Below are positions 23,338 through 31,156 of a DNA stretch of 64,000 bases, piece by piece. The stretch's first letter is position 1, and each line of letters starts with the position of its first letter. Origin of the DNA: a virus; IMG/VR virus record IMGVR_UViG_3300009183_000058, positions 1-64,000 of that record, one strand, 5' to 3'. The position numbers and the translations under genes were made by a program. The notes beneath the pieces were generated by a model, which made no database searches, was not told where the DNA came from, and saw only the letters and a list, made by a program, of their open reading frames with translations.

Positions 23338-25491
23338 TTAGTTGCGAGCGACCTGAATCATCTTTTGATTTTGGCTATTGTTGGCTTTTAACAATGCAAT
23401 CATTTCGTCTTGTTTTGCTATGCTTATTTTTAACATGTCATCAGAATTTCTACGTTCTAAGTTACCTGCAAAAGTCGCCTCCGTACCCGGGGCCATAGAT
23501 TTTGGAATCTGAGACGCAATTGATGACAATGCAGATGAATAACGGTCGTTAGGGCCACTTTGTATAGCCGCCATTAAATCATTAGGATTAATATTGGCAC
23601 GATTAGTATTGTATCCATCGTAACGACCTTGACCTGACATGTTTTGCGGTAAACTGGCCCAGGTGCCAGCAAGATTTTTCATCACAGTTGCTGGATCTCT
23701 ACTGCCAAGTCCTGCTTGCTTGACCAATTGTGATGCCAACAAGTCCTGTGTTTTTTGATCAAATTTAGTAGTATTTGGATCTAGTCCGGCTTTTTTTGCT
23801 TGCTCTGCCAGGGTGGCAGCAATCATCTGATACTTGCCAACTGCTGTACTGGCACGACCTTGGGCTCGCATGGTACTTTGAAACTTTTGTACTTCAGCAA
23901 TGGTCATGTTAGTAAGATTGGCCTCGCCACCACCTACTAGTGCATTGTAGTTGCCACCACTTTCCCCTCGTCCAATAATGTCTAGCAACGATGAAGAGCC
24001 GCCGCCACTGCCACCTCGGCTAGGGGACGCCTTTCCGCCTGCCGCACTGGTACCAGGAACAATTGCTTCAGTAACCTTGTCAATAGCACTGCTGAGATTT
24101 TCCATTGCACTGGTCACTGGCTTGATGCCAAGATCTTTAAATGCTTCCATGCTTCGAGTTGTTGACTCTTGTGCTTGTCGCATGCGAACTTGTGCCAACA
24201 CACTGTCTTCTATATTGGTAGTTTGATCTTTTTGTTGGTTAATGGCGTCTTTGACTGCCTTTGCTCTCTCTGTACCTATCCCCAGTAACCCAGCGGCTTG
24301 GCCAAACATCTCATCGCCTCTGCCTTGGAACTGATATTGGCCAGTAAATCCTCTTACTGTAGATGTTCCCTCTTTCTTGAATCGATCCAGTAAAGGACCA
24401 ACTTCCTCTATTGTTAGTCCTCTATTTTTTACTCCCAGTAATTCTGTAGCGGCACCACTGGCAGCCCGAAACAATTGTTCGCTTTCTTTAGAGGATCCCA
24501 CAAATCCAGTCAATAGGCCTGTTATGCCAGATTTCAATTTATCAGGTGCTTGTGCCAGCAAGAGATCCATGGCCGCTATAGTATCGGTAAAACGTTTGGC
24601 TGTTTCTTTATCTCCAACCGCCTTGGCAGCATCTGCTTTGTCTTGTAGTTCAAGCCTGGTAACAGCATAGCGAGACTCTTGTAGTCTGGCTTCTTGTTCG
24701 GCCTGAATTGATTCAGCACTCTTGCCTGTGAGTTTGGCAATCAAGTCCAACTGCTTGATATATTCAGCAGATCCTTGCACTAATTCTGCAGTGGTTTTGC
24801 GTTGTGTTGAACCACTTAGTACTTGTATACGTTGATAGCCTGCTATGCCTTGATTGATATCTGCAATTGAAAGACCCATGAGGCGAAACTGTGTTTGTAG
24901 TCCGCTGTCTTTGAATCCTTGAGTGACTTGGGCAAACGCCTTGGTACCTTGATTCACCGTGCCATTGTACAAGGCTAGAGTTTCTGCATTGGCCTTGATG
25001 CTGTTGGCAAACTGATCCAGGTCCTTTAAGGTATAACCAAATTGATGTAGGTTATCAAATACTTCTTTTAGACCGCCAGCACCTGCGGCACCAACTTTAC
25101 TAAGTTGCTGATATGTACCAAACAACTTGTCACTCTGTTCATTGACTGCTGTTACATATTTGGCAATAGAGGTAGCCAATGTACCAACAACTGCGCCAAT
25201 TATTCCAAATTTGGCAGCGAAAGAATCAATTGCGTTTGCACCTGCTGTGAGACTCTGGTTATAAATCGATGCACCTTGCTCACCTTTACCAAAAGCAGTG
25301 ACTAGATTAAGTGATGCTTGCCCCAGCAGTTTTATACTCTTGTTCAGTTCAGTGGTATAATTTTTGATACCAAGTTGGGCTTCTCTAAATTTTTCGGCCG
25401 TTTCTTCAGTCACGTAACCAAGAGTGTTAAATTCTTTGTTGAACTGTCTAAAAATCGCGTCAATTTCTTCTGGGGTGATTTGTGTAGCCAT
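23338..25491 (-). CDS. Tape-measure-like tail protein with muramidase domain
   Basis: 717 residues from ATG 25491 (MATQITPEEIDAIFRQFNKE). Residues 1-480 are helical and coiled, with a small hydrophobic patch near residue 95 (AAKFGIIGAVVGTLATSIAK) as in tape measures. Residues about 500-600 form a phage lysozyme/muramidase domain of the lambda-R-like COG4678 type: LLDIIGRGESGGNYNALVGG with likely catalytic Glu510, LTNMTIAEVQKFQS, STAVGKYQMIAATLAEQAKK and FDQKTQDLLASQLV. The C-terminus is helical again. The gene lies upstream of the portal with its own late octamer. A role in tail length, or as an internal protein that opens peptidoglycan, is inferred; T4 gp29 similarity is not obvious. Confidence 0.75.
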   Translation of the reverse strand: MATQITPEEIDAIFRQFNKEFNTLGYVTEETAEKFREAQLGIKNYTTELNKSIKLLGQASLNLVTAFGKGEQGASIYNQSLTAGANAIDSFAAKFGIIGAVVGTLATSIAKYVTAVNEQSDKLFGTYQQLSKVGAAGAGGLKEVFDNLHQFGYTLKDLDQFANSIKANAETLALYNGTVNQGTKAFAQVTQGFKDSGLQTQFRLMGLSIADINQGIAGYQRIQVLSGSTQRKTTAELVQGSAEYIKQLDLIAKLTGKSAESIQAEQEARLQESRYAVTRLELQDKADAAKAVGDKETAKRFTDTIAAMDLLLAQAPDKLKSGITGLLTGFVGSSKESEQLFRAASGAATELLGVKNRGLTIEEVGPLLDRFKKEGTSTVRGFTGQYQFQGRGDEMFGQAAGLLGIGTERAKAVKDAINQQKDQTTNIEDSVLAQVRMRQAQESTTRSMEAFKDLGIKPVTSAMENLSSAIDKVTEAIVPGTSAAGGKASPSRGGSGGGSSSLLDIIGRGESGGNYNALVGGGEANLTNMTIAEVQKFQSTMRAQGRASTAVGKYQMIAATLAEQAKKAGLDPNTTKFDQKTQDLLASQLVKQAGLGSRDPATVMKNLAGTWASLPQNMSGQGRYDGYNTNRANINPNDLMAAIQSGPNDRYSSALSSIASQIPKSMAPGTEATFAGNLERRNSDDMLKISIAKQDEMIALLKANNSQNQKMIQVARN

Positions 25492-25496
25492 AACTA

Positions 25497-25504
25497 TATT
25501 TACC
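25497..25504 (-). promoter_or_regulatory. Late promoter octamer GGTAAATA, 5 bases from ATG
   Basis: GGTAAATA, then TAGTT, then ATG 25491 on the minus strand. The 24-base interval between divergent starts 25491 and 25516 holds this octamer and, on the plus strand, the GGAG site of gp26. Confidence 0.65.
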
Positions 25505-25515
25505 GGAGTAAAAAC

Positions 25516-26355
25516 ATGCAACAACCCAATCCCCTAAGTCAATTTTTTAGACAACCAGCAATTCACATCAAACTACCCAGCGGGGGTAAGTTCTATCCAA
25601 CAGGTAGTTTAAACATGCCACCCAATGGAGAATTGCCAGTATTGCCCATGACAGCCGTGGACGAAATAACCTATCGCACCCCCGATGCGCTGTTCAATGG
25701 ATCTGCCATAGTTTCGGTTATACAGAGTTGTGTGCCCGGCATTAGAGATCCCTGGGTCATGCCCAGTACAGACATCGACGCTGTGTTAGTGGCCATACGC
25801 ATTGCCAGTTTTGGACACGGAATGGATGTGAATACCACTTGTTCCAGTTGTAACCACCAGGACGAAATCACAGTGGATTTACGAATAATCAATGATCAAA
25901 TCTTGCCAGGAGAGTACGACAAGAGTCTGTCAGTGGGAAATCTTGAATTTTACTTCAAACCCATCAATTACAAAGATGTCAATCAAAACAATCAAGTGCA
26001 GTTTGAACAACAACAAGCACTGCGAATACTAGACAATGCCGAAGCAGAAGAAACTGCCAAACTAGCGCAACTGAATCAAAGCATGAAGGTCATGAATGAA
26101 CTCACATTAAAAACTGTTGCCCAAAGTATAGGTGCAATCAAGACCCCCGACGCACTGGTAACTGAAATCAATTACATTTTTGAATTTCTCAACAACTGTG
26201 ACAGTCGAGTGTTTGCCCAACTGAGAGATCATGTGATTGCACTCAAGCAGGCCAGTGAGATCAAACCAATTAATTTGATCTGTACCGAATGTGGACACAA
26301 GTATTCACAACCGTTTACCCTGGACATGGCAAGTTTTTTCGGGGACGCCTCCTGA
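25516..26355 (+). CDS. gp26: Baseplate hub protein, gp26 family
   Basis: 279 residues from ATG 25516, preceded by GGAG at 25505-25508; T4 gp26 is 208. HIKLPSGGKFYPTGSLNM, LPVLPMTAVDEITYRTPDAL and VIQSCVPGIRDPWVMPSTDI are signatures of the T4 gp26 baseplate family. Two CxxC pairs, C109/C112 (TTCSSCNHQDE) and C256/C259 (LICTECGHKYS), could bind one zinc. T4 gp26 is needed to build the central hub. The last codons AGT TTT TTC carry a -1 slippery heptamer at 26334-26340, after which the -1 frame continues for 76 residues. It heads a short plus operon with apt and the nucleosidase. Confidence 0.88.
   Translation: MQQPNPLSQFFRQPAIHIKLPSGGKFYPTGSLNMPPNGELPVLPMTAVDEITYRTPDALFNGSAIVSVIQSCVPGIRDPWVMPSTDIDAVLVAIRIASFGHGMDVNTTCSSCNHQDEITVDLRIINDQILPGEYDKSLSVGNLEFYFKPINYKDVNQNNQVQFEQQQALRILDNAEAEETAKLAQLNQSMKVMNELTLKTVAQSIGAIKTPDALVTEINYIFEFLNNCDSRVFAQLRDHVIALKQASEIKPINLICTECGHKYSQPFTLDMASFFGDAS
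26334..26340 (+). promoter_or_regulatory. Candidate programmed -1 frameshift site T TTT TTC in gp26
   Basis: In gp26 frame the bases read agT TTT TTC, the X XXY YYZ pattern needed for tandem tRNA slippage. The gp26 stop follows 12 bases later at 26353-26355. Slippage gives FF-RGRLLISSPEE and joins gp26 to the downstream frame ending at 26570, making about 351 residues. Weak stems lie just downstream (CTGAT 26352-26356 with ATCAG 26373-26377; CCTC 26348-26351 with GAGG 26367-26370). Confidence 0.55.
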
Positions 26356-26570
26356 TCTCTAGCCCTGAGGAAATCAGTCAGATGATAGAGGCCATGGACA
26401 AGGACTGTCAACTGATAAGAAACGAGGCGGTAAAACTCAGTTGGTACATGCGTGGAGGATTGGCGTACGATCAGGCCATGGCTCTAAGTGCCAATGATCG
26501 AGAAATGATTGGCGAACTAATCAAAGAGAACTTAGAAACAACCAAGAAGTCCGGATTACCATTCTTTTAA
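26340..26570 (+). CDS. Frame downstream of gp26: frameshift extension or small separate protein
   Basis: The -1 frame after the slippery site encodes 76 residues: RGRLLISSPEEISQMIEAMD, then KLSWYMRGGLAYDQAMALSA and the end ENLETTKKSGLPFF. Small proteins ending in TTKKSG-PFF follow gp26 in other marine T4-like phages as far as I recall, so it is probably real. Two expression routes are possible: the -1 frameshift from gp26, or separate initiation at ATG 26382 (62 residues) with GAGGA at 26367-26371, 10 bases before it. The sequence upstream of 26340 in this frame only shadows gp26. It probably acts with gp26 in hub assembly; the arrangement resembles the G/GT tail chaperones of lambda. Confidence 0.65.
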   Translation, partial: RGRLLISSPEEISQMIEAMDKDCQLIRNEAVKLSWYMRGGLAYDQAMALSANDREMIGELIKENLETTKKSGLPFF

Positions 26571-28536: not shown

Positions 28537-29406
28537 TTAAGTTAACTCTGTTTCTCGCTGCCATTGATCGGTAAATCTAGTGGATCCTGTGGTGGTTCCG
28601 CATGTGTCCAAACACACAATATTGGGCTGTGTGCTGTTCCATGATGATTGAATTGACTCAAAATCAGTAACAAAATTCTTTTGAGTTGACCCTAACCAGC
28701 AACACGGACTTTCTCGCCCTTGTGCGTCGATATATGTACTTTGTTCTTTTAACGCATGACAGTCGATACTGGTGGATTGAATTTTGGGCACTTGCCAACC
28801 AATCGGAAATTGTAACTCGTTTGTAAATCCACGCTTGGAAATCTTGGCTCTAAACCATTTGAAACCCATGTCTCGCGCTAGTTGTTCACACTTATCAACT
28901 TCGTGTTGATTGTGTCGATAAACCAACATATCCCAGTGTGCTGAGCCACCCGCTTCAATAAACGATCGGGCATTGCTCATGAGTTTGTTCCAAACAACGT
29001 TTCGTCGATAAGTGGCATTTGTTGACTCTAGTCCGTCGATGCTGAAAACCACATAGTCTTGTGGCTGGTTCAAGATCTTGCCCAACTCATACCACCAGAA
29101 TGTGGTTTGTAAGCCTCCGTTTGTGTTCATACCCAACACAATATCGGGATTGACTTTTCTAAACTCTCTGTAAATGTCTAATGTGTGTTTACCTGCGGCA
29201 GGATCGCCGTAGTTACCACACATGAACATTTTGTCTAGTTGTCGAATTTTTCCTTCATCAAACACCTTTAGAATTTTATACAGATCTAGATGATGTTGAC
29301 GATCTTTTTTAAAATCTGGATCAGTTTCTCGGGCACACAATGCACATGCGGCCTGGCACACGTCTGTGGACTCTAAATGTAAAACTTTTATATCACGCAA
29401 GATCAA
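28537..29406 (-). CDS. Radical SAM protein (SPASM-like)
   Basis: 289 residues. The CX3CX2C iron-sulfur motif is C17-C21-C24 (TDVCQAACALCARE), followed by a GNYGDP segment near residue 65 and the SAM-binding strand VVFSIDGLESTNATYRR. The C-terminal region holds extra cysteines (ESPCCWLGS, CLDTCGT), like a reduced SPASM/twitch domain for a second cluster. The start is TTG at 29406 or 29400: no ATG occurs before the cysteine motif. It overlaps gp46 by 14 bases. The substrate is unknown; peptide or protein modification is usual for SPASM enzymes. Such genes occur in marine T4-like phages without a known role. Confidence 0.85.
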   Translation of the reverse strand: MILRDIKVLHLESTDVCQAACALCARETDPDFKKDRQHHLDLYKILKVFDEGKIRQLDKMFMCGNYGDPAAGKHTLDIYREFRKVNPDIVLGMNTNGGLQTTFWWYELGKILNQPQDYVVFSIDGLESTNATYRRNVVWNKLMSNARSFIEAGGSAHWDMLVYRHNQHEVDKCEQLARDMGFKWFRAKISKRGFTNELQFPIGWQVPKIQSTSIDCHALKEQSTYIDAQGRESPCCWLGSTQKNFVTDFESIQSSWNSTQPNIVCLDTCGTTTGSTRFTDQWQRETELT

Positions 29407-31156
29407 AATCCGTATTGTAACTGGTGAAACCGTTCTCTTTGATCACCTTGAGAATGTTCTCCACACGCCCGGCAAGTTCGTCTCGATGACTCACAAGCCA
29501 GATTGATTTGTGCCGTTCTCTACTCATTTTTTTGAGCAGGGCTAGTGCGTTCTCTACACCTTGTGTGTCTAACCCGTTGTCAATCAGTTCATCGATGAAC
29601 AACAAGTTAATGGGTGAGTATAAACTTTCCCATACATCACGGAACGCCCAACTCATGCTCAAGATCAATCGGTTACGTTCACCACGTGATAAGTTGTCAA
29701 AGTCCAGTTCACGACCCAGTTCTTCGATGCTTACAGTTAGATCATTCTGGAACTTCACAGTATGCGGCAAGCCAATGCGATCTAAATAGTGTGTGAGTCT
29801 TGCGTTCAAGTAACTCAAGTTTTGATCAATGATTTTCTTGCGCACAAAACTGTCTTTGGATGTCAATAGTTTGAGCAAGAAGTCTTGGTGATCTTGTACT
29901 CGAGTGAGTTCGTTTAAGGTGTCGTATGACACAACTTGTAAGGCTTGACCTTGCATGTCAGTGATTTGTTCTTCATAAGGATCTGCATCTGCTTGACGTG
30001 CAGTCAAATCTTTGCGCAGTGTCTCCACAGTATTGCGATGGTTCAGTGCTTGCTCGAGCGAATCATAAAACACAGTGGGTGCTGTGCCCAACGCACCAAT
30101 GTTAGCAATAGTATCTTCGTGCTCCTGGCGCTGTGTGTCATTAGCCAAGAGTTGTAGTGCTGTTTCTTGTACCAAGGCCTGTTTGGCCTGCTTCAACTCA
30201 TCTTGTTTGTCATCATGCAAGTCTTGGCCACATGAGTGACACCGGTGAGCATCTAAGGCCTCAATCTCTATTCGGAGTTTGTCTAAAAGTTTCTTGAGTT
30301 TAGCATCATCTGCGTCAATTTGACGAATGTATCGGATGGCATCGTCTAGGGACTTTTTCTTCACATGAAACGCTTCAAGATCTCTATGTGCTTGTACTTC
30401 GGCATCAATGTCTATGTGTTCAAGATCCGCAATGGCCTGTTCTAATTTTCCTACATCTTCATCACGCCGGGCAATCCACAGTCGTTGACGTTTACGCAGA
30501 CTTTCGATTTGTTCCTCAATACGCTTGTTGGCTTCTTGTACAGCACGTATACGAAACTCTTCGGCTTGGATAGCATCTTTGGTCTGCCGGTTGAGTTCTT
30601 TGATTGCATCAGCACGTTCCGATAACAAAGTAATACCCAACAACTGCTCAATAATAGTGCGTTGATCATTAGCCTTCAAACTCAAGAACGGCTCTGTATA
30701 AGTGTTCAGTGCCAGCACATGTTTGAACATGTCATGACTCATGTTCATCACACGCTCGATAGCATCTTGTGTTTCTCTTGAGTCACCTTGTGCTTCGTCT
30801 TCAGCAGCCTTGTGTTCATTGTTGATATAAAAACGCAACACATTAGGTTTACGTCCTCGTTCAATTCTGTACTCTTGTCCGTTAACACTAAAGTCCAAAC
30901 TGACCAACATGTTCTTGCCATTGGTTTTGTTTACTAGATTGTCTTTGCGGATGTTTGATAATGCCTGCCCATACAAGGCATAACTTAGTGCATTGATGAT
31001 TGTGGTCTTACCAGTACCGTTGCGACTACCATCCCCGCCTAGATCTAGATTTTCGCCAAGTACTAAAGTTAGGTCACTGCGGTCAAAGTCAATACCTTGA
31101 GTAGCGGCACCCACACTCATAAAATTCTTCACGGTTAAATTTTTAATTTGAATCAA
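29393..31156 (-). CDS. gp46: Recombination endonuclease subunit gp46 (Rad50/SbcC-like ATPase)
   Basis: 587 residues (T4 gp46 560). The N-terminal MIQIKNLTVKNFMSVG matches gp46, and Walker A is GSRNGTGKTT with Lys50, preceded by a loop LGENLDLGG. Long coiled coils flank a zinc hook CHSCGQ near residue 305. The signature SRGERNRL is near residue 488 and Walker B LLFIDELIDN near 517. With gp47 it resects DNA ends for recombination-dependent replication and host DNA breakdown. The start is TTG 31156, with GGAG 7 bases before; an in-frame stop two codons upstream excludes a longer form, and the next ATG would remove the conserved first strand. Confidence 0.95.
   Translation of the reverse strand: MIQIKNLTVKNFMSVGAATQGIDFDRSDLTLVLGENLDLGGDGSRNGTGKTTIINALSYALYGQALSNIRKDNLVNKTNGKNMLVSLDFSVNGQEYRIERGRKPNVLRFYINNEHKAAEDEAQGDSRETQDAIERVMNMSHDMFKHVLALNTYTEPFLSLKANDQRTIIEQLLGITLLSERADAIKELNRQTKDAIQAEEFRIRAVQEANKRIEEQIESLRKRQRLWIARRDEDVGKLEQAIADLEHIDIDAEVQAHRDLEAFHVKKKSLDDAIRYIRQIDADDAKLKKLLDKLRIEIEALDAHRCHSCGQDLHDDKQDELKQAKQALVQETALQLLANDTQRQEHEDTIANIGALGTAPTVFYDSLEQALNHRNTVETLRKDLTARQADADPYEEQITDMQGQALQVVSYDTLNELTRVQDHQDFLLKLLTSKDSFVRKKIIDQNLSYLNARLTHYLDRIGLPHTVKFQNDLTVSIEELGRELDFDNLSRGERNRLILSMSWAFRDVWESLYSPINLLFIDELIDNGLDTQGVENALALLKKMSRERHKSIWLVSHRDELAGRVENILKVIKENGFTSYNTDFDLA

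Follow-up and report, generated by a model that had tools for sequence, protein, structure and literature searches.

The window analysed here is a 64,000-nucleotide stretch (positions 1 to 64,000) of IMG/VR record IMGVR_UViG_3300009183_000058, a 94.6-kb fragment of an uncultivated virus. A gene of family PF12322, called gp26 here, lies on its plus strand at 25516–26355 and encodes 279 amino acids in the zero frame. The gene ends with GCA AGT TTT TTC GGG GAC GCC TCC TGA, where a slippery heptamer T TTT TTC (26334–26340, codons AGT TTT TTC) is in frame with the gene and the stop codon TGA (26353–26355) comes four codons past the slip site. After a −1 slip, the letters are read as TTT TTT CGG GGA CGC CTC CTG and onward, and this extension (26340–26570, plus strand) provides 76 amino acids before its TAA at 26568–26570. 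Joined to the first 275 residues, it makes a fusion of 351 amino acids. An earlier note on this DNA was thus right about the in-frame heptamer, the −1 frame running to 26570 and the fusion of about 351 residues. The 26289 start that it gave is indeed an ATG of the −1 open reading frame, but a mechanical one without a Shine–Dalgarno (SD) sequence. Among the 42 open reading frames of at least 100 amino acids in the window, it is only in the PF12322 gene that the last 20 codons hold a canonical heptamer leading into an open −1 frame; extensions of at least 70 codons in the −1 frame are not rare by themselves, occurring in 11 of the 42.

On the minus strand, a divergent neighbour at 23338–25524 encodes 728 amino acids. 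It has no Pfam match and falls in phrog_37890, a group of unknown function. A corresponding gene occupies the equivalent divergent position of Phosso, Paride, 121Q, Munch, RaK2 and CBB, and the RaK2 record notes its similarity to tape measure protein. From its position in relatives, the neighbour is a candidate tape measure protein, which would be the expected client of a chaperone. On the other side, two plus-strand genes follow gp26, a phosphoribosyltransferase (PF00156, 26578–27099) and a member of the phosphorylase superfamily (PF01048, 27092–27631), possibly a purine salvage pair. Farther along on the minus strand are a SegE-type GIY-YIG endonuclease (PF19835, 28047–28475) and a radical SAM protein (PF04055, 28537–29406), the latter adjoining an SbcC-like gene (29393–31156).

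The short form encoded by gp26 matches PF12322 over residues 57–275 (E 9.6e-15) and phrog_150 (E 3e-14). It contains two CxxC pairs, C109/C112 and C256/C259, whose cysteines are invariant in 38 relatives. An AlphaFold2 model of it has pLDDT 87.6, and the fold matches, with E down to 1e-24, proteins for baseplate hub assembly from many other phages; a Foldseek comparison of the model with the PDB had no hit with E below 1.5. Searching PDB sequences with either the gp26 profile or the divergent neighbour returned nothing useful. In T4, gp26 and gp51 are listed as hub assembly chaperones, and gp51 is absent from the final particle (PMC3004832). Because of the family, the paired forms, the adjoining tape-measure-like gene and T4 genetics, the short and long products are most likely a tail assembly chaperone pair. 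The 279-residue protein would be TAC-N, the counterpart of lambda gpG, and the extension joined to the first 275 residues would most likely be TAC-NC, the counterpart of lambda gpGT and T4 gp51. For the window gene, the chaperone function is thus predicted from homology and position.

The reading that we favour, with a probability of about 0.94, is that the locus is a tail assembly chaperone gene of a T4-like phage whose two forms would be generated by a ribosomal −1 slip. The majority of ribosomes would read through to TGA 26353 and make the 279-residue short form. A minority would slip back by one base on T TTT TTC, as the tRNA-Phe on UUU in the P site and on UUC in the A site re-pair on UUU UUU, and make the 351-residue long form with the C-terminal extension. 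By analogy with lambda gpG and gpGT, the tape measure protein would be covered by chaperones, most of them short and a few long, the C-terminal domain of the long form would recruit tail-tube subunits, and both forms would then depart. The sequences show the shift site, the selection on it, a selected −1 frame and homology to T4 gp26/gp51, and from these the efficiency of the shift, the ratio of the two forms and the binding by the chaperones are inferred. The earlier note had likened the layout to lambda G/GT, and the likeness holds as an analogy of layout that includes the frameshift: a −1 slip close to the end of the gene, a short and a long product, and a tape measure gene (in the window a candidate one) alongside. 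The lambda heptamer is G GGA AAG, and lambda differs from the window in that the window neighbour is divergent.

Conservation was examined in IMG/VR relatives gathered with the window protein (P0001) and a profile (A1); the collection has at least 587 of them. The window-type set consists of 92 loci in which the gene end is present, including four isolates: Sinorhizobium phage Phosso, Agrobacterium phage Atu_ph07, Pseudomonas phage Paride and Escherichia phage 121Q. All 92 have N NNT TTT TTC in frame at the gene end. In the complete loci of this type, the −1 frame is open for 69–75 codons beyond the zero-frame stop, and in complete contigs of the window lineage for 71 codons in every case except one (L028, 73). 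The slip site is followed by the stop after four codons in all window-type contigs, after three in Paride and after one each in Phosso, Atu_ph07 and 121Q.

The second set is of cyanophage type, with 81 loci reaching the gene end (80 IMG/VR relatives and Syn9). In a Pfam search, Syn9 has a single PF12322 gene, its site is T TTT TTC, and phrog_634, the group named ‘baseplate hub assembly catalyst’ (gp51), overlaps the gene end in the −1 frame. An in-frame T TTT TTC with a −1 extension is present in 81/81 of these loci, the extension being 58–67 codons long in the complete ones. Among 14 further isolates, 13 have T TTT TT[CTG] with a −1 extension, including the jumbo phages RaK2, Munch and CBB, where 6, 11 and 4 codons, respectively, separate the slip site from the stop. 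The site is T TTT TTC in S-RIM8, P-SSM2, Milchi, phiAS5, Yut3, PG216 and MIJ3, T TTT TTT in phiN3 and XacN1, and T TTT TTG in RL38J1. In XacN1 (locus L207, 2275–2325), the T TTT TTT lies 10 codons before the gp26 stop, while nearly all relatives have T TTT TTC.

Conservation of the heptamer and of the −1 continuation, which the earlier note had named as its check, was found in 186 of the 187 loci, and in these the pattern it had named as contrary, a broken heptamer with a good downstream start or genes lying apart, does not occur. The odd one is Vibrio phage D503 (locus L205, 2040–2100), which has one PF12322 gene ending with CTT TTC AAG TAA, lacks the canonical heptamer there and still keeps a TAC-C-like −1 frame. 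In this phage, reinitiation close to the gp26 stop or slippage at a different site may produce the C-terminal part.

Sequencing indels do occur in T6 runs, so the overlap could in principle be a homopolymer artefact, or a chance arrangement without function. The same arrangement recurs in about 170 cases, counting separately assembled contigs together with finished genomes of isolates, and both frames are under selection as described below, contrary to either possibility. We regard this explanation as refuted by conservation, with a negligible chance of being correct.

Selection is seen in the codons of the slip site. The codon preceding TTT TTC ends with T in 148/148 distinct complete loci, although seven different codons (AGT, TCT, AAT, CGT, GCT, ACT and GGT) for six amino acids are used. 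The two phenylalanines are coded as TTT TTC in all 148, while codon use predicts TTT, TTC for FF with a probability of 0.20–0.23. Selection is also seen in the extension. Along successive stretches of the window-type −1 frame, pN/pS is 0.46, 0.32 and 0.25, compared with 1.05–1.83 in the other frames, all values being averages over pairs without correction for phylogeny. In extension codons 6–13, which lie upstream of ATG 26382, the −1 frame has a pN/pS, averaged in the same way, of 0.53, and the other two frames have 0.96 and 1.63. Purifying selection acts on the −1 frame from directly behind the gp26 stop onward, before any start codon that is conserved.

This last result bears on whether the extension is a separate downstream gene, which would start at ATG 26382 (or ATG 26394), either from an SD of its own or through reinitiation by ribosomes that have terminated at TGA 26353. 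The earlier note had raised this rival, and its ATG 26382 with GAGGA 9 nt before it is present in the window; an ATG is also common at extension codon 18 (85/92 window-type loci), and public records usually show the extension as a separate small gene. Among 70 distinct window-type relatives, however, only one combines an SD with an ATG at codon 14. A start codon with an SD-like 4-mer is absent from the first 40 codons in 30/70 window-type and 63/76 cyanophage-type loci. A separate start would also leave the invariant in-frame heptamer unexplained. Mainly because the −1 protein is conserved upstream of any conserved start codon and of both ATGs, frameshifting is favoured over a separate gene. 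An internal start for the extension was rejected on the scarcity of starts and SDs and on this upstream selection, and we consider it very unlikely.

The long form could instead arise from slippage of RNA polymerase on the T6 run, which is present in nearly every locus and from which the polymerase and the ribosome would yield an identical fusion. Known sites of transcriptional slippage usually have about 9 or more A/T. Here a C almost always comes after exactly six T, with no lengthening of the run, and the ribosomal X XXY YYZ phase is kept, even as T TTT TTG in RL38J1. The cyanophage types moreover bear SD-like motifs 8–10 nt upstream, as expected for a ribosomal stimulator. We consider transcriptional slippage very unlikely too. 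From the sequences compared, programmed −1 frameshifting at T TTT TTC appears almost certain.

In the cyanophage-type loci, GAGG, GGAGG, AAGG or AGGA is always present 8–10 nt upstream of the heptamer, a distance close to that of the stimulatory SD in dnaX, with the motif being partly imposed by Glu-Gly codons. No such SD-like stimulator was found upstream of the heptamer in the window-type lineage. Downstream structure in the window is weak (z of about +0.6 to +1.0 over 50–70 nt), as the earlier note had said of the hairpins; the mean z is about −0.8 (weak) for the window type and −1.5 (moderate) for the cyanophages. In Atu_ph07 (locus L020, 3822–3890), a strong hairpin with z of −3.2 lies just 3′ of the slippery site and is likely to stimulate the slip in that phage; it has no counterpart in the window. 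A consensus fold of the gap-free window-type alignment was empty. A long-range stem is possible between CGCCTC (26346–26351, plus strand) and GAGGCG (26424–26429, plus strand), for which a mean of 4.5 of 6 pairs form in register compared with 0.7–3.1 when the arms are slid, these being pair counts for one named stem without covariation. A variant of the 5′ arm, CAACTC, is mostly not compensated in the 3′ arm.

Vladimirov, Gautam and Davidson, writing in Virology in 2022, reportedly identified the tail assembly chaperones of T4-like phages and described frameshifting as apparently conserved in several T4-like groups, with T4 using genes 26 and 51. In a passage of the Adele paper (PMC12846349), Vladimirov et al. 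2022 is the source cited for poly-T −1 signals in the TAC-N genes that T4-like phages carry. A passage of the PRFect paper (PMC10885494), citing the same work, states that in place of frameshifting some T4-like phages encode the short and the long chaperone by a gene each. The earlier note's view that T4-like phages are not known to frameshift at gp26 is outdated in light of what these passages relay. As far as they describe it, the TAC-N/TAC-NC system of Vladimirov et al. 2022 shares with the window the gene family 26/51, the short and long forms and the poly-T −1 signal. In a 2016 review (PMC5009743), T4 still counted as the one long-tailed phage that departs from G/GT-type frameshifting, and a 2010 comparison described gp51 of cyanophages and vibriophages as being without the first ~200 residues and did not mention frameshifting (PMC3037559).

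In T4, gp26 (baseplate hub subunit) and gp51 (hub assembly catalyst) both match PF12322 and are paralogues, gp26 being short and gp51 long with a C-terminal tail. Unlike the window phage, T4 has two separate genes and no slippery site in gp26, where the FF at the end is kept but coded GAG TTC TTT. An alignment of the T4 gp51 tail with the cyanophage −1 extension has almost no gaps, and phrog_634 matches both. The window-type extension has a weak profile match to the T4 and cyanophage extensions (29 columns, probability 15%), with the position and an ER motif shared. Cyanophages (Syn9, P-SSM2 and S-RIM8) share T TTT TTC, there one codon before the stop, and a −1 extension of about 60 amino acids. 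They differ from the window type in the upstream SD-like motif, in the shorter extension and in the large tape-measure-like gene that follows on the same strand, whereas the window neighbour is divergent.

Two PF12322 genes are present in T4, Acinetobacter phage PhT2, Krischvirus SFHK24, Aeromonas phage 31 and Citrobacter phage Xman, all of T4 type. The other 22 isolate genomes or long contigs scanned have one PF12322 gene above the cut-off each, and the 94.6-kb window record also has one, with the shift site. One-gene genomes carry the −1 extension, and two-gene genomes are of T4 type. Because PG216 and phiAS5 are classed in Straboviridae and still keep one gene with the heptamer, the switch to two genes seems to have taken place inside Straboviridae. 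We lean towards the view that the shift is ancestral to the T4-like superfamily, covering jumbo phages, cyanophages, rhizobial phages and even Schizotequatrovirus and Chrysonvirus within Straboviridae, and that genes 26 and 51 arose by a later duplication in Straboviridae, which gave each form a gene of its own and after which the slippery codons were lost. To this picture would be added that the window-type lineage uses a bare heptamer without the SD element of cyanophages.

Public records of the isolates at loci L197–L204, L206, L209 and L019–L022 list the −1 extension as a small gene of its own, whose start varies from record to record, and it is unannotated in those of Paride, MIJ3 and RaK2. 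Since the extension is annotated separately or missed in the public records examined, many records of T4-like phages probably need a joined CDS. The frameshifted tail chaperone of T4-like phages was already published in 2022, and the window phage is a further, uncultured case. In line with the 2022 paper, the data account for the T4 ‘exception’ and for the truncated gp51 of cyanophages and vibriophages; in cyanophages gp51 would lack the first ~200 amino acids because it is the −1 extension of gp26, a product of the shift.
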